Positions 21,990-62,084 of a stretch of DNA of 64,000 nucleotides are shown here, in pieces. Position 1 is the stretch's first letter. Every line of letters starts with the position of its first letter. Under the pieces are notes generated by a model that saw nothing but the letters and a program-made list of their open reading frames with translations, did not search any database and was not told the DNA's origin. A program made the position numbers and the translations under genes. Source of the stretch: Chloroflexota bacterium (lineage in GTDB: Bacteria; Chloroflexota; Anaerolineae; Anaerolineales; Villigracilaceae); the NCBI GenBank assembly GCA_019873735.1, contig JAIOAQ010000012.1:1-64000 (forward strand). The letters are read 5' to 3'.

Positions 21990-23012
21990 TTGAGCGATAC
22001 ATTGAAAATCGTCATTCCAATGGCCGGATTGGGCACACGCATGCGGCCACAGACCTGGAGCAAGCCCAAGCCTCTTGTTTCTGTGGCGGGCAAGACCGGC
22101 CTGGAGCATTTGCTGGATACATTCGATTCACTCCCCGACCCCAAACATACCGAATATGTCTTTATTGTCGGCTACCTGGGCGACCAGATTCGTCCTTTTA
22201 TGGAGGCTAACTATCCGCACCTGAAGGTGCATTATGTCACCCAACCGGAAATGAAAGGACAGTCTCATGCCCTCTGGCTGGCACGCGAGCACTTGCATGG
22301 ACCACTGGTGATGCTGTACTCAGATACCCTCATTGAGACGGATTTCCGCTTTCTGGCCAACGAACAGAAAGATGGGGTTGCCTGGGTCAAGGCCGTTCCA
22401 GACCCGCGCCGCTTTGGCGTAGCCGAAGTGGACTCTAGTGGGCGTGTCACCCGCCTTGTGGAAAAGCCAACCTCCCTGGATAACAACCTGGTTTTGGTGG
22501 GGTGCTACTACTTCAAGGAAGGCGAGGCGCTGGTCAGCGCTATTGAAGAGCAAATGCGGCGTAACATTCAACTCAAGGGCGAATACTTCCTGGCCGATGC
22601 GGTCAATGTCATGCTTGAACGCGGCGCCGACTTTCGCACGCAAGAAGTCAAGGTCTGGCTGGATACCGGCACAATTGAAGCCACGCTGGAAACCAACCGC
22701 TATTTCCTGGATCATGGCCGGGAGAATCAGGCTGCTCACCTTGGCGAAGACGTGGAAATCATCCGCCCCGTGTTTATTCATCCTACCGCACAGGTGGAAA
22801 ATTCCAAAATTGGGCCCTACGTCTCCATCGGAGCCGAATGCCGGGTTGTAGATAGCAAAATCGAAAACAGCATCCTGGAAGCGGGTGCATACATCGAGTC
22901 GGTCAGCCTGGCCAAATCGTTCATTGGACGCAAAGCCGAAGTGCGCGGGCGCGGCCCGGAAGAAGGCGCTTGCTCACTCAATATCGGCGATAATTCCAGT
23001 GTGATCATGTAG
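21990..23012 (+). CDS. Sugar-phosphate nucleotidyltransferase with beta-helix domain
   Basis: A 340-aa NDP-sugar pyrophosphorylase. The N-terminal signature KIVIPMAGLGTRMRPQTWSK, then PKPLV, is the G-x-G-T-R-x(6)-P-K-P nucleotide-binding motif; VEKP near residue 155 and GEYFLADAVN near 200 are typical of glucose-1-phosphate thymidylyl/uridylyltransferases. From about 255 there are left-handed beta-helix hexapeptides (PTAQVENSKIGPYVSIGAEC). The start is TTG, supported by CAGGAG 7 bases upstream. It probably supplies an activated sugar for cell-surface polymers; the exact sugar is not readable. A terminator follows at once. Confidence 0.88.
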   Translation: MSDTLKIVIPMAGLGTRMRPQTWSKPKPLVSVAGKTGLEHLLDTFDSLPDPKHTEYVFIVGYLGDQIRPFMEANYPHLKVHYVTQPEMKGQSHALWLAREHLHGPLVMLYSDTLIETDFRFLANEQKDGVAWVKAVPDPRRFGVAEVDSSGRVTRLVEKPTSLDNNLVLVGCYYFKEGEALVSAIEEQMRRNIQLKGEYFLADAVNVMLERGADFRTQEVKVWLDTGTIEATLETNRYFLDHGRENQAAHLGEDVEIIRPVFIHPTAQVENSKIGPYVSIGAECRVVDSKIENSILEAGAYIESVSLAKSFIGRKAEVRGRGPEEGACSLNIGDNSSVIM

Positions 23013-23043
23013 AGATGCCAAGGGCATCTCTACATTATTTTTC
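23009..23043 (+). terminator. Terminator after the nucleotidyltransferase gene
   Basis: GTAGAGATGCC and GGCATCTCTAC are 11-bp perfect arms with a 3-nt loop, followed by ATTATTTTTCT. The left arm contains the stop codon of the gene. Confidence 0.85.
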
Positions 23044-26022: not shown

Positions 26023-26146
26023 AGTAATTACTTGCAACCCTCCCGCAGGTTAGACTGGGGCTGGCGGCCAATGCCAGCACTTGCGAAGACGTCTTCTGGC
26101 TTGGACATTGTGCCAAAACCTGCGGGAGGGTAGGCTTTGTGATTGC
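26023..26146. repeat. Palindromic element, copy B
   Basis: The arms CCCTCCCGCAGGT (26038-26050) and ACCTGCGGGAGGG (26118-26130) are identical to copies A and C. Read in reverse, its interior (GCACAATGTCCAAGCCAGAA, then GACGTCTTC) matches copy C (GCGCAATGTCCAGGCCAGAA, then GGCGTCTCC), so copy B is inserted in the opposite orientation. It starts directly after the phosphatase stop codon. Confidence 0.85.
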
Positions 26147-26411
26147 ACATGTAAAGCACATGTGCAAGTACATGGCGGGCAAGCCGTCAGGGGGATAGAA
26201 GCACTTTTTTCTTCTCTTCACTATGTTATAGCGATGACAGGATGACCGCCGGTTTTACCGGTGCCTTGCCGTTCTGGTCCAATTGCCAGGGACAGCAGGT
26301 TTGGGCGGCCAGACAGGCCAGGGGGCTGAAGGCAGCAAGTTTGGCGCCGCAGCCAGAGCAGGGCTTCTATTGTCAACTCAACTTGCCGGCCGGAAATCAT
26401 CCCATTTTAAT
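26147..26411. other. Intergenic stretch without a supported gene
   Basis: Between copy B and the operator region I find no ORF with a plausible start and no RNA gene that I recognise. There are short inverted repeats (GCACATGTGC; CCGGTTTTACCGG) and a GC-rich patch followed by an abrupt change to AT-rich DNA at about 26395. Confidence 0.5.
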
Positions 26412-26441
26412 AATATCAAACTTGATATTAATAATATCAAG
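26412..26441. promoter_or_regulatory. Two overlapping TTGATATT palindromes (operators)
   Basis: AATATCAAACTTGATATT (26412-26429) is an 8-2-8 perfect inverted repeat. It shares one arm with a second perfect palindrome at 26421-26441 whose core is TTGATATTAATAATATCAA (26422-26440). The three half-sites are alternately oriented and lie just upstream of a consensus promoter. A dimeric regulator, possibly the HTH-bearing DUF2089 protein encoded downstream, is the obvious candidate. Confidence 0.75.
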
Positions 26442-26448
26442 TTTTAAC

Positions 26449-26476
26449 TTGACATTTTTAAATAATTTTGTATAAT
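26449..26476 (+). promoter_or_regulatory. Consensus promoter of the DUF2089 operon
   Basis: TTGACA (26449-26454) and TATAAT (26471-26476), both perfect, are spaced 16 bp apart and immediately follow the double palindrome. The next start codon with a Shine-Dalgarno is at 26521. Confidence 0.85.
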
Positions 26477-26520
26477 AACTTTAGATTTCGTGTTTGCCTT
26501 TTAAAATCGGAGAAACTGTT

Positions 26521-26748
26521 ATGCACCACCCTGCCCCTCCCACCGTTTCGCTATCCGCCTTTTTGCCTGCCGGCGAGGTAAAACTCCCCGAATACCCGTC
26601 CTGCCTGCTTGCAGAACACAAGCCCCGCGGGCGTATTGCCGCCTTGCGTCAGCAGGTAGGCGACCTGTTGATTTCGATTGGCCTGAAGATTAAGGGCCAA
26701 TCCCCCAGCCTGCAAGTTTTCCCGTCACCTGCCAGGAGGTCTTCATGA
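26521..26748 (+). CDS. Small protein preceding DUF2089
   Basis: 75 aa, MHHPAPPTVSLSAFLPAGEV at the start. The middle is the helical RGRIAALRQQVGDLLISIGL, followed by a short basic tail. GGAG precedes the ATG by 7 bases, and the stop overlaps the next start by ATGA, which supports translation. The helical segment recalls short amphipathic helices found in other small genes of this operon type. It could be a membrane-associating or partner peptide. I cannot assign a family. Confidence 0.6.
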   Translation: MHHPAPPTVSLSAFLPAGEVKLPEYPSCLLAEHKPRGRIAALRQQVGDLLISIGLKIKGQSPSLQVFPSPARRSS

Positions 26749-27131
26749 AGCCAGTTCTCACCCAGTGCCCGGTGTGTAAAGGCGAATTGACCGTTACGCG
26801 CTTGTATTGCCCGTCTTGCGATACCACCATTGAAGGCCGTTTTGTGGCTGGTTCCTTTGCCTACCTCACGCCAGAACAACTTAAATTTGTCGAGATGTTT
26901 GTGCGCTGTGAAGGCAAAATCAATCGGATGGAAGATGAAATGGGACTTTCTTATCCTACCATCCGCAACCGCCTGCATGAAATTATCCGTGCGATGGGTT
27001 ACGAACCCGGCAAGGATGAGCCGGCTGAAGCCGTTAGCGAAGAACGCCGCCGGCAGATTCTTGAAGACCTGGATGCCGGCCGCATCACAGCCGAACAGGC
27101 CATGCGTATCCTGAGCGGTGAGGAGGCCTGA
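26745..27131 (+). CDS. DUF2089 zinc-ribbon/HTH protein
   Basis: 128 aa. A four-cysteine zinc ribbon (Cys8, 11, 22, 25: CPVC and CPSC) leads into a helix-turn-helix of the kind TPEQLKFVEMFVRCEGKINR, then MEDEMGLSYPTIRNRLHEII. The C-terminal 30 residues (SEERRRQILEDLDAGRITAE, then QAMRILSG) are a short helical hairpin of the same type seen at the ends of the next proteins. DUF2089 proteins are regarded as putative transcription regulators. Here it is the likely regulator of this operon, perhaps responding to the repeat protein downstream. Confidence 0.85.
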   Translation: MKPVLTQCPVCKGELTVTRLYCPSCDTTIEGRFVAGSFAYLTPEQLKFVEMFVRCEGKINRMEDEMGLSYPTIRNRLHEIIRAMGYEPGKDEPAEAVSEERRRQILEDLDAGRITAEQAMRILSGEEA

Positions 27132-27132
27132 C

Positions 27133-28275
27133 ATGCAACGCCAGACTGTCATTTGCGGCTCCAGCCCAAAGGTACGCCTGCGCTCTGTCCCAGGCGATTT
27201 GCGCCTCAGCGGCTGGGAACGTGATGAAATTTCGGCCAAAACCAATGGCGACCTGCTGGAGTTGTTGGGCAATGAAGGCGGCTTTGACCTGTCTTGTGAT
27301 GATGATCTCATCCTCTCGGTTCCCATTACTGCTGAACTCACGATTGAATCGGTGGGCGGTGATGCCGACTTGCGCGGTTTGAATGGTTTGTGTCAGGTTG
27401 AGCAGATTGGGGGCGATTTTGTCGGGCGGAACATCGGTTCTTTTCGGACCCAAAACGTGGGCGGCAACCTGAGTCTGCGCGGGGTTGCGGGCGACGTCTC
27501 GGCTGCCAATGTGGGCGGCGATGCCAGCCTGCGCGCTGCCCAGGCCAACATCTCCCTATTGGCTGTGGGCGGGGATTTGCACCTGCGCGGCGCATCGGGC
27601 AACCTTTCGGCCAGTGTGGGCGGCGATGCGGTGCTGTACCTTGAACCACGCCCCGAGGCTGAAATCACGCTCACTGCCGGCGGCGACATCCTCCTGCGTC
27701 TGCCACCCGATGCAGATGCCCGCCTGGAACTCCAGGGCGGGGGCAGCGATTCCATCCATGTCAACCTGCCCGGCATAACCTTTGATGAGCAGGCGTGGAG
27801 CGGCCAAATCACGCTGGGAGAAGGCCGCGCCCGCATTAACCTGGTTGCAGGCGGTGAGATTACCGTTACCAGTCAGGCCGAAGAGTGGCAATCAGCCGCC
27901 GAGTTTGATTTTGATATGGACTTTGATTTCGATATGGATTTTCCCAACTTGCCGGCCGATTTGTCGGGCCGGATTGAGCGCGAAGTTGAGTATGCTGCCC
28001 GCCAGGCTGAGCGTGCCAGGGAACGCGCCGAAGCCGCCAGGCAGCGTGCCCAGCAGAAGGCGCGCGAGGCCGAGCGCCGGATTCAGGCGAAAGTCAACGC
28101 CCGCGTTGGCCGCTGGGGCATGGACTGGAGCGGTACGATTCCGCGTCCACCCCGTCCGCCCGCGCCGCCTTCAGAGCCGGTCAGCGACGAAGAACGCCTG
28201 ACCATTCTGCGTATGCTGGCCGAAAAGAAAATCACGGCCGAAGAAGCCGAAAAATTGCTGGCCGCACTGGAGTAA
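27133..28275 (+). CDS. VGGD-repeat beta-helix protein with SHOCT-like tail
   Basis: 380 aa. Residues about 10-240 are an iterated beta-solenoid in which VGGD recurs about every 18-20 residues (SVGGDADLRG, NVGGNLSLRG, NVGGDASLR, AVGGDLHLRG, SVGGDAVLYL), as in DUF4097/adhesin-like domains. An acidic FDFDMDFDFDMDF run (about 258-270) and a charged coiled coil (about 280-325) follow, then a Pro-rich linker and a C-terminal helical hairpin, SDEERLTILRMLAEKKITAE plus EAEKLLAAL, of the SHOCT/LiaX-YvlB type. No signal peptide. It starts at the ATG after GAGGAGG. Inferred role: sensor or scaffold in envelope stress. Confidence 0.8.
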   Translation: MQRQTVICGSSPKVRLRSVPGDLRLSGWERDEISAKTNGDLLELLGNEGGFDLSCDDDLILSVPITAELTIESVGGDADLRGLNGLCQVEQIGGDFVGRNIGSFRTQNVGGNLSLRGVAGDVSAANVGGDASLRAAQANISLLAVGGDLHLRGASGNLSASVGGDAVLYLEPRPEAEITLTAGGDILLRLPPDADARLELQGGGSDSIHVNLPGITFDEQAWSGQITLGEGRARINLVAGGEITVTSQAEEWQSAAEFDFDMDFDFDMDFPNLPADLSGRIEREVEYAARQAERARERAEAARQRAQQKAREAERRIQAKVNARVGRWGMDWSGTIPRPPRPPAPPSEPVSDEERLTILRMLAEKKITAEEAEKLLAALE

Positions 28276-28279
28276 CCTG

Positions 28280-28900
28280 ATGTCATCCGAAGAACGACGC
28301 AAAATCTTGCAAATGGTGGAAGATGGCAAAATTACGGCCGCGCAGGCGGTGACCCTGATGAAGGCGCTGGAAGAGGATGAGCCTGAAGCACAGATTTCGC
28401 CCCTCGAAACCGAAGCAGGCGCGGGGTCCGTTTCTGAGCCGGACCCTGGGCTGGCTGCCACAGCCGAAAAAGCGCGCTCGCTCTGGCAGATTCCGCTCTG
28501 GTTGGGCGTCGGCCTGACGGTGCTCAGCGCCGTCCTGATCTACTGGATCATGTCCTCCTCTGGCTATAACTTCTGGTTCTACTGCATGTGGTTGCCTTTG
28601 CTGGCGGGCGTGGCGCTCACCGCGCTGGCTGCGGCCAGCCGTACAATGCGCTGGCTGTTTGTGCGCGTTGACCAAAAGCCAGGGGAATACCCACAGAAAA
28701 TCATTTTGGGCTTCCCGCTGCCTTTGCGTCTGGCCGGCTGGTTTCTGCGTACTTTTGGGCACAAAATCCCCAGCCTGCATAAGACGAATGCAGATGAGAT
28801 TCTACAAGTGCTGGATGCTGCCGGTGCTGCCGGCGCGCCGCTGATTGTGAATGTGGAAGACGAAGAGGACGGCGAACGCGTCCAGGTTTTCATTGGGTAG
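28280..28900 (+). CDS. Membrane protein with SHOCT-like N-terminus
   Basis: 206 aa. The first 30 residues (SSEERRKILQMVEDGKITAA and QAVTLMKALE) repeat the helical hairpin found in three neighbouring genes. After a spacer there are two transmembrane helices (about 72-92 and 98-116), a basic loop, and a cytoplasmic domain ending in IVNVEDEEDGERVQVFIG. The same ending style (DVVDEEDGEHVEIFVE) closes the gene at 30386, so the two are partial paralogues. It lies 4 bp after the repeat protein and 5 bp before the MFS gene. Confidence 0.75.
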   Translation: MSSEERRKILQMVEDGKITAAQAVTLMKALEEDEPEAQISPLETEAGAGSVSEPDPGLAATAEKARSLWQIPLWLGVGLTVLSAVLIYWIMSSSGYNFWFYCMWLPLLAGVALTALAAASRTMRWLFVRVDQKPGEYPQKIILGFPLPLRLAGWFLRTFGHKIPSLHKTNADEILQVLDAAGAAGAPLIVNVEDEEDGERVQVFIG

Positions 28901-28905
28901 GAAAG

Positions 28906-30153
28906 ATGGACGCTCCTCTCACTCCCGTTATTGAACGAAAGAAAAGCACCCTGCTCAGCGGGCTGCTCTTGCTCTTTTTGCTGGCCATGATTCTGGCCAA
29001 TTTAGGGGGCAATATGTATGGGCCGCTGATGTCGCTCTACATTAAGGACTTGGGCGCGTCTGTGCCGCAGATTGGCCTGTTCTTTACCATCTCATCCATC
29101 ATCCCCCTGGCGTTGCAGATTTTGGGCGGCTGGATTTCGGATTCGGTGGGCCGCCTGCGGGCGATTGCTTTTGGCAGCCTGGCCGGGACATTGGCTTATG
29201 TGGCCCTCATCCTGGCTCCTACCTGGGAATGGTTGCTGCTTGGTTCGGCTTTCTTTGCAGTGGGTTCTTCGCTGGTCGGACCTAGTTTCGACGCGTTTAT
29301 TGCCGAGCATTCTGAGGAAGATAATCGCGCCCGCATGTTTGGCATTACACAGGCCATTTTCATGGTGGTTGGTGTGGCCGGGCCGCTGCTCGGCGGCTGG
29401 CTGGCAAAGGGATATGGCTTCAAGTTCATGCTCATGGTTGCCGGGGTGCTTTATGCGGCCGCGACGATAATCCGTGTGGGCATGGCGCGCGACGCGGCCC
29501 GCGGGGCGGGAGCAGCGTCTCACCGGCCGCTGACTCTGGCAAGTCTGGGCTCGAATCTGAGCGCCATGCTCGGCTTGCTGCTGGGCGGAGGGGTGCTTAC
29601 CTGGATTCTGATCACCGATGGCATACGCGATACGTCCTTTGCGCTTTCGATGAACCTGCTTTCTGTCTTTATGCAGGAATTTGGCAAGTTAGACCTGACC
29701 CAAATCGGTTTCACCAATAGTATTTTCGGCTTGTTTGTCATGCTCACCACCATTCCGGCCGGCTGGCTGGCCGATAAGGCGGGCGAGCGGGTGGCCATTG
29801 CAGTTGGCTTTTTGCTGATCGGCATTTCCATTGGCGGCCTGGTCCTCCTGCCGCCAGCGGTGCTCTGGATGTATGCTGCCGGCTGGGCGGTGGCCGGTAT
29901 TGGCGTGGGCTTGATTTCGCCCGCTTACCAGTCCCTGATCAGCAAGGCTGTTCCGGCGCACTTACGCGGGACGGCTTTTGGATTGTTCAGCACCAGCCTG
30001 GGCTTGATTTCCCTGCCGGCGCCCTGGCTGGGCGCGCAACTGTGGCAGCAAGTTGGACCGCGTTTCCCCTTCCTGATTACGGCGGCGGTCTCGATTCTGT
30101 CTATCATTCCGATTTGGCTCAAATTTAAATTGCATCAGGAGGAGAAGGATTAA
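28906..30153 (+). CDS. MFS exporter (paralogue 1)
   Basis: 415 aa, 12 predicted helices. Family blocks: ILANLGGNMYGPLMSLYIKD in helix 1, GGWISDSVGRLRAIAFGSLA (the MFS motif A region), and GWLADKAGERVAIAVG between helices 8 and 9. The charged loop LKFKLHQEEKD ends the protein. It is highly similar over its full length to the transporter at 60846, including the block TAFGLFSTSLGLISLPAP. It is the last cistron of the tightly packed DUF2089 operon, so it is probably induced under the same stress. The substrate is unknown; drug or lipid-like compounds are plausible. Confidence 0.88.
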   Translation: MDAPLTPVIERKKSTLLSGLLLLFLLAMILANLGGNMYGPLMSLYIKDLGASVPQIGLFFTISSIIPLALQILGGWISDSVGRLRAIAFGSLAGTLAYVALILAPTWEWLLLGSAFFAVGSSLVGPSFDAFIAEHSEEDNRARMFGITQAIFMVVGVAGPLLGGWLAKGYGFKFMLMVAGVLYAAATIIRVGMARDAARGAGAASHRPLTLASLGSNLSAMLGLLLGGGVLTWILITDGIRDTSFALSMNLLSVFMQEFGKLDLTQIGFTNSIFGLFVMLTTIPAGWLADKAGERVAIAVGFLLIGISIGGLVLLPPAVLWMYAAGWAVAGIGVGLISPAYQSLISKAVPAHLRGTAFGLFSTSLGLISLPAPWLGAQLWQQVGPRFPFLITAAVSILSIIPIWLKFKLHQEEKD

Positions 30154-30184: not shown

Positions 30185-30357
30185 TCACTGCAAAAAGTCA
30201 CAACGCAAAGCCGCCAGGGTGCAAAGGCGCAAAGAAGGATGATATCTGTTTTTGAGAACACGTTTTTACGCTTAAAAACGGCGCTTTGCTTAAGTTGATG
30301 TATAAAACTTTGCGGCTCTGCGCCTTTGCGTTAAAGATTTTGACCTTTTTGCAGTGA
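30185..30357. repeat. Imperfect inverted-repeat (MITE-like) element
   Basis: The left arm starts TCACTGCAAAAAGTCA and the right arm, reversed, TCACTGCAAAAAGGTCA. Inside both arms is an iterated AACGCAAAG/GGCGCAAAG heptamer-like pattern (left CAACGCAAAGCCGCC..., right AACGCAAAGGCGCAGAG). Arms are about 45-50 bp, total 173 bp, with no coding capacity. It separates the MFS gene from the next SHOCT-like gene and looks like a non-autonomous insertion. Confidence 0.75.
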
Positions 30358-30385
30358 GTCATTAAACTTATAGAGGAGAGATTTT

Positions 30386-30766
30386 ATGGCAACGACAGAA
30401 GAGCGTATGAAAATTTTAAAGATGATTGAAGAAGGGAAAATCAGCGCCGAAGAGGGAGCGCGTTTGCTGGCTGCACTTAATCAGGGACGCAAAGCAGTCT
30501 CAACGGGGATGCAGGTTGGAGCAGGCGCCCCGCGCTGGCTGCGCGTTCGCGTCACCGATATCCGAACCGGCCGCTCTAAGGCTTCTGTCCAAATTCCGCT
30601 CACCTTGGTGGATGCCGGCCTGAAGATCGGCGCTCATTTTGCCCCCGAGGTTGAAGGCGTGGATATGTCCAATGTCATGGATGCCCTGCGGGCCGGCATG
30701 AGCGGGAAAATCATTGATGTTGTTGACGAGGAAGATGGCGAGCACGTGGAAATTTTCGTTGAATAA
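30386..30766 (+). CDS. SHOCT-like cytoplasmic protein
   Basis: 126 aa. The N-terminal hairpin TTEERMKILKMIEEGKISAE, then EGARLLAAL, is the same module as in the two genes before the MFS pump. The rest, with WLRVRVTDIRTGRSKASVQI and PLTLVDAGLKIGAHFAPEVE, is a beta-rich domain ending in an acidic tail. No membrane segment. GAGGAGAGA precedes the ATG. It probably belongs functionally to the DUF2089 operon although an inverted-repeat element now intervenes. Its stop abuts the stop of the convergent epimerase gene. Confidence 0.75.
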   Translation: MATTEERMKILKMIEEGKISAEEGARLLAALNQGRKAVSTGMQVGAGAPRWLRVRVTDIRTGRSKASVQIPLTLVDAGLKIGAHFAPEVEGVDMSNVMDALRAGMSGKIIDVVDEEDGEHVEIFVE

Positions 30767-31765: not shown

Positions 31766-32362
31766 TCACTCCTTTTGAGCGGCAAGCCCGTTCATCATAA
31801 TTTTCAAGGATTCGGTGGTAATCGCTTGCCAGTCGTCCTCTTGCGGGTCAAGCAGACCCTGCAGCAGCATACCCACTGCCAGGGCAACGATCAACCGCGC
31901 TGCCGCCTGGGGCTCTACCGGCCGAAAGACACCTTCGGCGACTCCCTGTTCGATCAGGCTGGCAAAGTAGTCCCGATAGCGGCGGTAAGGCGCGATTGTC
32001 GTCTGCCAGACGGCCTCGTCACGGCTGGCCTGCGCCCAAAATTCGAGAAACATGGGCAAGCGTTGGTCGGCATCCCGGAAGATTCCCGGCACGGCGGCGG
32101 TCATGCGCATGAAAATCTGGGCTGCATTCTCGGCGCCCTGGCGTGCCTGTGCAAACTGCGCGTCCAGCCCATCCAGCCAATCGTGCAGCAATTGTAGAAA
32201 GACAGCCTGTTTTGTGGGAAAGTGATGGTAAAAAGCGCCTTTGCTGACGCCGGCTTCGGCACAGATATCCTCCACTGAGGCGGCCTCATAGCCCAAACGG
32301 GCAAACAGGGTGAGTGCGGCTTGCAAAATATTGGCGCGTGTTTCTTCGCTGCGAGTCTGCAT
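31766..32362 (-). CDS. TetR-family regulator
   Basis: 198 aa. The N-terminal HTH is complete: TRANILQAALTLFARLGYEA, then SVEDICAEAGVSKGAFYHHF, the standard TetR recognition helix. The C-terminal ligand domain is helical and ends with a TetR_C-like segment (AARLIVALAVGMLLQGLLDP). A perfect 18-bp palindrome lies 15 bp upstream of the ATG, so autorepression is likely, with the downstream epimerase as co-regulated partner. Confidence 0.93.
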   Translation of the reverse strand: MQTRSEETRANILQAALTLFARLGYEAASVEDICAEAGVSKGAFYHHFPTKQAVFLQLLHDWLDGLDAQFAQARQGAENAAQIFMRMTAAVPGIFRDADQRLPMFLEFWAQASRDEAVWQTTIAPYRRYRDYFASLIEQGVAEGVFRPVEPQAAARLIVALAVGMLLQGLLDPQEDDWQAITTESLKIMMNGLAAQKE

Positions 32363-60845: not shown

Positions 60846-62084
60846 ATGACAGAGATTGCTATTGAAACTACGAAAGAAAGCCGCATTTCGCTGCTAAATG
60901 GGTGGCTGTTGCTATTCATGTTTGCCATGATTCTGGCAAACATCGGCGGGAATATGTATTTTCCCATTTTGCCGCTCTATTTACAGGATCTGAATGCTAC
61001 TGTTCAACAGGTAGGGTTGTTCTTTACCCTTTCGCGCATCATCCCGCTGGCTTTGCAAATTTTGGGCGGTTGGATGTCTGATACCCTGGGCCGCTTGCGC
61101 AGTATTGCCATTGGCAGTATCGGCGGCATGATTGGTTTTGTGTTTATGCTGGTTGCGCCGACCTGGCAATGGCTGCTGGTTGCTATGGCTTTTGGGGCTG
61201 TCTCTGGGGCGCTGGTTGGGCCAAGTTTTGATGCTTTCATTGCTGAAAACTCGGATGAATCCAATCGGGCGCGCGTCTTCGGCATTACCCAGTCGCTGTT
61301 CATGATTGTGGCCGTCATTGGCCCGTTTCTGGGCGGCTGGCTGGCTGATGACTACAGTTTCCGTTTTATGCTTTTGGTGGCTGCCCTGCTGTATTTAGGC
61401 GCGACGATCATTCGCATTGGCATGGCCCGGCGGGCGAGAGAAAGCGAGGAAAAGAAGGCTGAAAAACTGAATTTCTTGGGGCTGAAGGCCAATTTGGGCG
61501 CCGTGTTCGGTATGGTCTTTTCTGGTGGGATCATCACCTGGATCATGATTACCGATGGCGTGCGCGATACGGCTTTTGCCTTGTCCGACAACTTGACGTC
61601 TCTCTACATGGGAGATGTGGCCGGCATGTCCATGAAGCAGATCGGTTTGGTCAACAGTTTGTTCGGTCTGTTCATGATGCTCTTTACCTATCCTGGCGGC
61701 TGGCTGGCCGATAAGAAAGGTGAGCGGATTGGCATTGCTGCAGGCTTTGGGTTGATCGGCCTATCGTTTTTTGTCTTTCTACTGAACAAGGCCACGGTTT
61801 GGATGTTTGGCTTCAGTTGGGCGCTGGCAGGAATTGGCGCTGGTTTGCTCAGCCCGGCTTACTCGTCGCTCATCAGCAAGGCTGTGCCGGAGAAACTGCG
61901 TGGTACGGCTTTTGGCCTGTTCAGCACCAGCCTGGGACTGATCTCTTTGCCCGCTCCGGCGCTGGGCGCTCTGTTGTGGGATAGTTTTAACCCGCGCTTT
62001 CCGTTTATCGTTACGGCTGCGGTGGTGCTGGCGACCATTATCCCGGCCTGGGTGAAATTCAAGTTACCACAGGTTCAAGAGTAA
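60846..62084 (+). CDS. MFS exporter (paralogue 2)
   Basis: 412 aa, 12 helices. Nearly the same text as the transporter at 28906: GNMYFPILPLYLQDLNATVQ, then RIIPLALQILGGWMSDTLGR, GWLADKKGERIGIAAG and TAFGLFSTSLGLISLPAPAL. AAGGA is 9 bases before the chosen ATG; an earlier in-frame TTG is not preferred. Placed last in the methyltransferase/acetyltransferase operon, it is the best candidate for drug or toxin export, coupled to chemical modification by the enzymes upstream. Confidence 0.88.
   Translation: MTEIAIETTKESRISLLNGWLLLFMFAMILANIGGNMYFPILPLYLQDLNATVQQVGLFFTLSRIIPLALQILGGWMSDTLGRLRSIAIGSIGGMIGFVFMLVAPTWQWLLVAMAFGAVSGALVGPSFDAFIAENSDESNRARVFGITQSLFMIVAVIGPFLGGWLADDYSFRFMLLVAALLYLGATIIRIGMARRARESEEKKAEKLNFLGLKANLGAVFGMVFSGGIITWIMITDGVRDTAFALSDNLTSLYMGDVAGMSMKQIGLVNSLFGLFMMLFTYPGGWLADKKGERIGIAAGFGLIGLSFFVFLLNKATVWMFGFSWALAGIGAGLLSPAYSSLISKAVPEKLRGTAFGLFSTSLGLISLPAPALGALLWDSFNPRFPFIVTAAVVLATIIPAWVKFKLPQVQE

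Follow-up and report, generated by a model that had tools for sequence, protein, structure and literature searches.

DUF2089 has been described, in the available portions of Ravi et al. (2024; PMC11237479), as a zinc ribbon-HTH-SHOCT protein within a four-gene Toastrack context, and a transcriptional output has been predicted there for DUF2089-Toastrack operons; the domain is also mentioned in PMC2686095 and PMC2671507. The operon analysed here shares with the Toastrack context a DUF2089 protein composed of a zinc ribbon, an HTH and a putative SHOCT-like domain, together with a putative Toastrack gene. To the published account, as far as its available portions go, we add a DNA site, an operator architecture and a regulon, all as predictions, and exporters as members of the operon.

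Two other groups of systems are comparable, again judging from the available text of the sources. The Lia, Yvl and Psp envelope-stress systems of Bacillota (PMC9239133, PMC12791056) include a Toastrack (LiaG/YvlB-like) partner, as the present operon probably does, and the likeness extends to LiaF-TM-like genes among the apparent targets and to a predicted HTH fold near the DNA-binding domains of LiaR and VraR. Unlike those systems, the DUF2089 operon contains no two-component system that we recognised; the proposed regulator is a one-component protein with a zinc ribbon and a SHOCT-like tail, and its apparent regulon consists mostly of exporters. In leaderless bacteriocin clusters (PMC10707071, PMC7332713, PMC9484092), DUF2089 also adjoins efflux or ABC transporter genes, but these proteins are from Bacillota and shorter (98 aa in PMC10707071, 89 aa in PMC7332713), and the available text of the three papers does not describe DUF2089 regulation. 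No DNA site recognised by DUF2089 turned up in our search of the subscription-free literature, in the portions available. With the present analysis, a widespread DUF (encoded in 143 of 199 sampled Anaerolineae genomes) gains a concrete candidate DNA site and promoter register. It also gains a candidate regulon, made up of multidrug-type exporters and Lia-like membrane proteins, in a group of bacteria for which hardly any experimental genetics exists.

Promoter and repeats in the window

The window is the whole 64,000-nt stretch of Chloroflexota DNA that was analysed. A TTGACA-16-TATAAT promoter lies on its forward strand at 26449-26476 (TTGACA 26449-26454, TATAAT 26471-26476), matching the consensus hexamers at 12 of 12 bases, in an island with a GC fraction of 0.20 (26400-26499) against mostly 0.45-0.65 in the flanks. 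Both features had been pointed out in the initial annotation, as had three half-sites directly upstream, AATATCAA (26412-26419), TTGATATT (26422-26429) and AATATCAA again (26433-26440), all of which are present. The first two form the 8-2-8 palindrome that had been described, with one additional matching pair. The second palindrome exists but had been cut short: rather than 10-1-10, it is a perfect 13-1-13, AAACTTGATATTA-A-TAATATCAAGTTT (26418-26444, without strand). When the AT island was shuffled 20,000 times with its composition preserved, an arm of 13 was reached 4 times, and 30 shufflings of the entire window, in blocks of 100 bases, gave no arm longer than 12. The window holds a second perfect inverted repeat with 13-nt arms, at 23007-23035 with a 3-nt spacer, at the end of a gene that we named nucleotidyltransferase-like by eye (21990-23012); it is probably a terminator stem.

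Overlooked until now was an exact direct repeat. The 13-mer TTAATAATATCAA, which has the form TYRA-N5-TYRA, occurs at 26407-26419 (site 1) and again at 26428-26440 (site 2), and a further 21-bp step leads to TTGACATTTTTAA at 26449-26461 (site 3), the first six bases of which are the -35 box; all three are read on the forward strand. The 13-1-13 palindrome arises where sites 1 and 2 abut. The 19-bp palindrome TTGATATTNNNAATATCAA has a single exact copy in the window's genome, where the nearest other sequences carry two mismatches, and it was rejected as the conserved unit because it occurs there only once.

Conservation of the array across DUF2089 promoters

The initial annotation had suggested that the palindromes could be the site of the DUF2089 regulator, a view that turned on the presence of the motif before other DUF2089 operons. 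An array does precede these operons across Anaerolineae, and the proposal is partly supported, with a redefined site; the exact 19-bp palindrome is confined to its own genome, and palindromy is not the conserved feature of the array. The starting set comprised 79 DUF2089 loci, and the nearest DUF2089 homologs all come from Chloroflexota assemblies, mostly Anaerolineales or Anaerolineae. A consensus promoter was found inside an AT island in 71 of the 79 loci, as far as 1.7 kb upstream of DUF2089 where an MFS gene comes first, and its spacer was 16 bp in 68 cases and 17 bp in the other three. The eight loci without a promoter above the AT threshold include seven with a less AT-rich promoter and one at a contig edge.

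After the three promoters with 17-bp spacers had been set aside and 8 redundant sequences removed from 69, the remaining 61 promoters, including that of the window, were aligned on the -35 box. TYRA occurs at positions -42, -33, -21, -12 and +9 in 26, 23, 27, 31 and 22 of them (43, 38, 44, 51 and 36%), compared with a mean of 3% at other positions (z 14-19 for the five columns). Shuffled promoters gave TYRA in about 2 of 61 sequences per column and in 10 at most in any column. An alignment-free count of the spacing from one TYRA element to another shows maxima at 9, 12, 21 and 30 bp (z 22, 13, 24 and 12), and the G and C bases of the AT islands cluster at the Y and R columns within the array. 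Given these columns in register and the spacing peaks, the operator is built from a conserved 13-bp unit, TYRA-N5-TYRA, which recurs at 21-bp intervals and whose proximal copy is fused with the -35 box. In the window, site 1 corresponds to columns -42 and -33, site 2 to -21 and -12, and site 3 to 0 and +9. None of the five TYRA elements stands in exact register in 15 of the 61 promoters, and some promoters hold the array displaced by 1-2 bp.

Several controls bear on the arrangement. In all 61 loci, a position weight matrix built without close relatives of the test sequence gave the true promoter the top rank, and on held-out sequences the true order of the operator columns scored better than all 500 permutations (z 5.9). 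The same held for 22 exporter promoters that were picked by protein homology and not by their DNA (z 5.4, 500 of 500 permutations beaten); these are the promoter-bearing rows of a set that omits the query L229, one duplicate (L256), and L225, L240, L254 and L257, as well as L222, L223 and L224, MFS loci that were already among those selected with profile R1 (see below). Control promoters of the same loci (AT threshold 0.55, 16 members) barely follow the order (z 1.8, with 16 of 500 permutations as good). Among other AT-rich promoters of these loci, 43 of 55 have no TYRA in register, a count in which one control (L039), and perhaps a few more, really belongs to DUF2089.

Outside the class, the full array was absent from 22 DUF2089 loci of other Chloroflexota classes, a few of which retain a proximal TTGACTTTNTTAA-like site. 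DUF2089 genes were also located on plasmids of Bacillota and Legionella. The DUF2089 proteins of two loci (L062 and L064) carry an EERWGSYPT insertion directly before the recognition helix, and the arrays in their promoters are degenerate; this pair could possibly serve as a natural test of protein-DNA co-variation.

Genomic distribution of the array

A degenerate pattern with two mismatches also matched GC-rich coding repeats (e.g., in G023), and a profile (R1) was therefore used instead; GC-rich matches to the pattern were set aside by eye, and no count given here rests on that search. R1 was built on 60 promoters, with the window left out, and run over 61 whole genomes, matches being listed down to an E-value of about 0.11. 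Many training loci come from the genomes searched, while the window and all matches away from DUF2089 lie outside the training set. The window's genome has one full-length site (E 2.6e-9); its next matches, at 0.06 or weaker, are limited to the promoter portion of the profile or to pieces of it.

Matches below 1e-3 number 47, and in 32 of them a DUF2089 gene on the same strand follows within 2.2 kb. Of the remaining 15, 11 stand before MFS exporters (of two types), a SHOCT gene or the ATPase of an ABC exporter. Two precede LiaF-TM-like membrane proteins (PF18917), the ORFs of which, as called, begin some 310 and 520 bp further on; one is the antisense echo of an island before DUF2089, and one strong match (G044:C7) precedes unassigned ORFs. 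The 37 genomes with a match below 1e-3 are all among the 55 of 61 that encode DUF2089 (p 0.002), a test that is partly circular because most matches sit in the DUF2089 operon itself; no match below 1e-3 was found in genomes without DUF2089, nor in 18 of the 55 with it. Across the class, with 24 candidates scored per genome, 18 of 22 matches lie directly upstream of DUF2089 (positions compared by eye), and all 22 genomes with a match encode DUF2089, as against 143 of 199 overall (p 0.0004). The other four comprise one before an MFS_3-type gene, one near a contig end and two before unrelated ORFs. Weaker R1 matches precede genes that appeared by eye to be phytoene synthase-like and phytoene desaturase-like (L181 and L183, in G013 and G031), the match at L183 covering roughly the promoter half of the model.

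Within the listed E-value range, R1 matches precede 11 of 32 MFS_3-type genes (the query included, and two through the promoter part alone) and 3 of 7 ABC orthologs, and such a promoter is missing from 12 of the 17 detached genes of the window's own MFS type that were examined, including one in the window at 60876-62078. These counts speak against a broad regulon. The MFS, ABC and SHOCT gene types behind 11 of the detached matches recur inside DUF2089 operons of other genomes, and an exporter or SHOCT gene may therefore either belong to a DUF2089 operon or, once detached, carry its own copy of the operator.

The operon and its DUF2089 protein

The promoter is followed on the forward strand by six genes. 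The first encodes a 75-aa leader protein (26521-26748), a weakly homologous counterpart of the small first ORFs of many related operons; it had no Pfam or NCBIfam match, and a protein search of 60 relatives returned no clear homolog. The first ORF after the promoter encodes a protein of 70-80 aa in about 30 loci. Most of these contain the segment G-x-x-[LM]-[IV]-x-x-G-x-[KR]-[LI], which 19 of 31 sequences in the alignment and 18 of 712 background ORFs match, a comparison in which the pattern was written after inspection of the alignment and the similarity lies in this one short segment. Small first ORFs stand upstream of DUF2089 in the window and in L009, L015, L021, L040, L058, L068 and L075, and the three that were searched against Pfam had no match. 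They may, from their sequences, possibly be a new small-protein family of the DUF2089 operon.

Next come DUF2089 (26745-27131), the candidate operator-binding protein, and a Toastrack (DUF4097/LiaG-like) protein with a C-terminal SHOCT-like domain (27133-28275), which scores below the curated cut-offs (DUF4097 16.4 bits, cut-off 22.9; LiaG model E 6.8e-8, 32.1 bits, cut-off 285). A SHOCT-like protein with hydrophobic segments (28280-28900), in a gene order conserved among the loci, an MFS exporter (28906-30153), detached homologs of which bear the operator in some relatives, and a further SHOCT-like protein (30386-30766), with an operator-bearing detached homolog in G049, complete the operon. 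Near DUF2089 in the 79 loci, several of which are on contigs that end early, we found an MFS gene of one or both types in 57, the Toastrack gene in 71 and the last SHOCT gene in 70; in L075 an ABC exporter gene lies within the operon.

The DUF2089 protein (PF09862/PF22747/PF22746) has a well-supported HTH domain (78.4 bits, Pfam cut-off 33.4) and N-terminal zinc ribbon (55.6 bits, cut-off 27.6), the cysteines C8, C11, C22 and C25 of which are nearly invariant in 52 homologs. Its C-terminal SHOCT-like domain falls below the cut-off (23.4 bits, cut-off 27), with two C-terminal helices predicted. The same 52 proteins scarcely vary in the segment SYPTIRNRLHEVIRALGYEPG, which surrounds the predicted recognition helix. 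In an AF2 model (pLDDT 82), residues 34-90 were closest to DosR (Z 6.9, rmsd 1.9 over 51 aligned residues), VraR (6.6) and LiaR (6.4), followed by sigma region 4 (5.8) and Fis (5.5). As regards the tetrahelical HTH fold of NarL/LuxR-type proteins, the model lies near such domains, sigma region 4 and Fis, with every score under Z 8 and below the level for family membership. When the DUF2089 profile was searched against solved structures, no hit was significant (best E 0.044), and Foldseek gave no match below 0.001.

Proposed mechanism and alternatives

The array stands before the same gene cluster, and before detached export genes, in many relatives, and it is therefore probably a switch read by DUF2089. 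We consider it rather probable that 26407-26461 is a three-site operator to which DUF2089 binds, and that until an envelope or drug signal releases it the protein represses the operon that encodes it as well as, in relatives, exporter genes that have become detached. Several phased sites, one of them overlapping the promoter, make up the layout of a tandem-operator autorepressor, and this layout is seen at 26407-26461. We infer that DUF2089 dimers would bind cooperatively; with the sites 21 bp, or two helical turns, apart, they would be stacked along a single side of the double helix. Site 3 embraces the -35 box and, once occupied, would deny it to RNA polymerase. Repression would then cover the leader protein, DUF2089, the Toastrack-SHOCT protein, the SHOCT protein, the MFS exporter and the last SHOCT protein, and in relatives would extend to LiaF-like membrane proteins and to exporters of the MFS and ABC types encoded apart from the operon.

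It is unlikely, in our estimation, that the array is instead the operator of another regulator, encoded elsewhere and common in Anaerolineae, which controls the DUF2089 operon and the exporters. The window does contain a TetR gene (31766-32362), the link between DUF2089 and the site is drawn from sequence, and the regulators surveyed were those within the operon. Against this, DUF2089 is the sole HTH gene recognised in minimal operons of the form promoter-DUF2089-SHOCT-MFS (e.g., L073, L074, L076, L077, L079 and L080; their other ORFs lay outside the Pfam scan), every genome with an array match encodes DUF2089, and the DUF2089 recognition segment is nearly invariant.

That DUF2089 acts on the array as an activator and not as a repressor seems quite unlikely. 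In its favour, sites 1 and 2 are located upstream of the -35 box, and the HTH is like NarL/LuxR-type domains and sigma region 4. Against it, the -35 hexamer falls within site 3, and the promoter already matches the consensus at every hexamer base. Very improbable is that the AT-rich stretch is a UP element or curved DNA boosting a strong promoter, with the palindromes as by-products of AT composition: a GC-poor island does lie directly upstream of a consensus promoter, and parts of the array overlie the expected location of a UP element, but the 9/12/21-bp spacing of TYRA is far above that in composition-matched shuffles, the islands' G and C gather at the Y and R columns of the array, held-out sequences favour the true column order over every permutation, and most other AT-rich promoters of the same loci are without TYRA.

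If DUF2089 is the repressor, its release by an envelope or drug signal would perhaps run via its SHOCT and Toastrack partners, and the architecture of the proteins suggests relief through contact of the partners' SHOCT-like domains with the SHOCT-like tail of DUF2089. A wider form of this idea, which we put forward as possible though doubtful, is a kinase-free envelope-stress switch across Anaerolineae, in which a one-component zinc-ribbon/HTH repressor on 21-bp phased arrays would be pulled off the DNA by SHOCT-SHOCT contacts with membrane-proximal SHOCT, Toastrack and leader proteins, derepressing drug exporters and membrane-repair genes.

Other features of the window

Directly 3' of an inositol monophosphatase gene, at 26037-26131, is a GC-rich inverted repeat with perfect 15-bp arms (ACCCTCCCGCAGGTT / AACCTGCGGGAGGGT) separated by 65 nt, which had no Rfam match. 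A long imperfect inverted repeat at 30185-30365, with arms CGCAAAGGCGCAAAG / CTTTGCGGCTCTGCGCCTTTGCG and GTCACTGCAAAAAGTC / GACCTTTTTGCAGTGAGTC, sits between the MFS gene and the last SHOCT gene and, judged by eye, looks like a MITE-type element. A T-box leader (RF00230, 101 bits) is present at 265-519.
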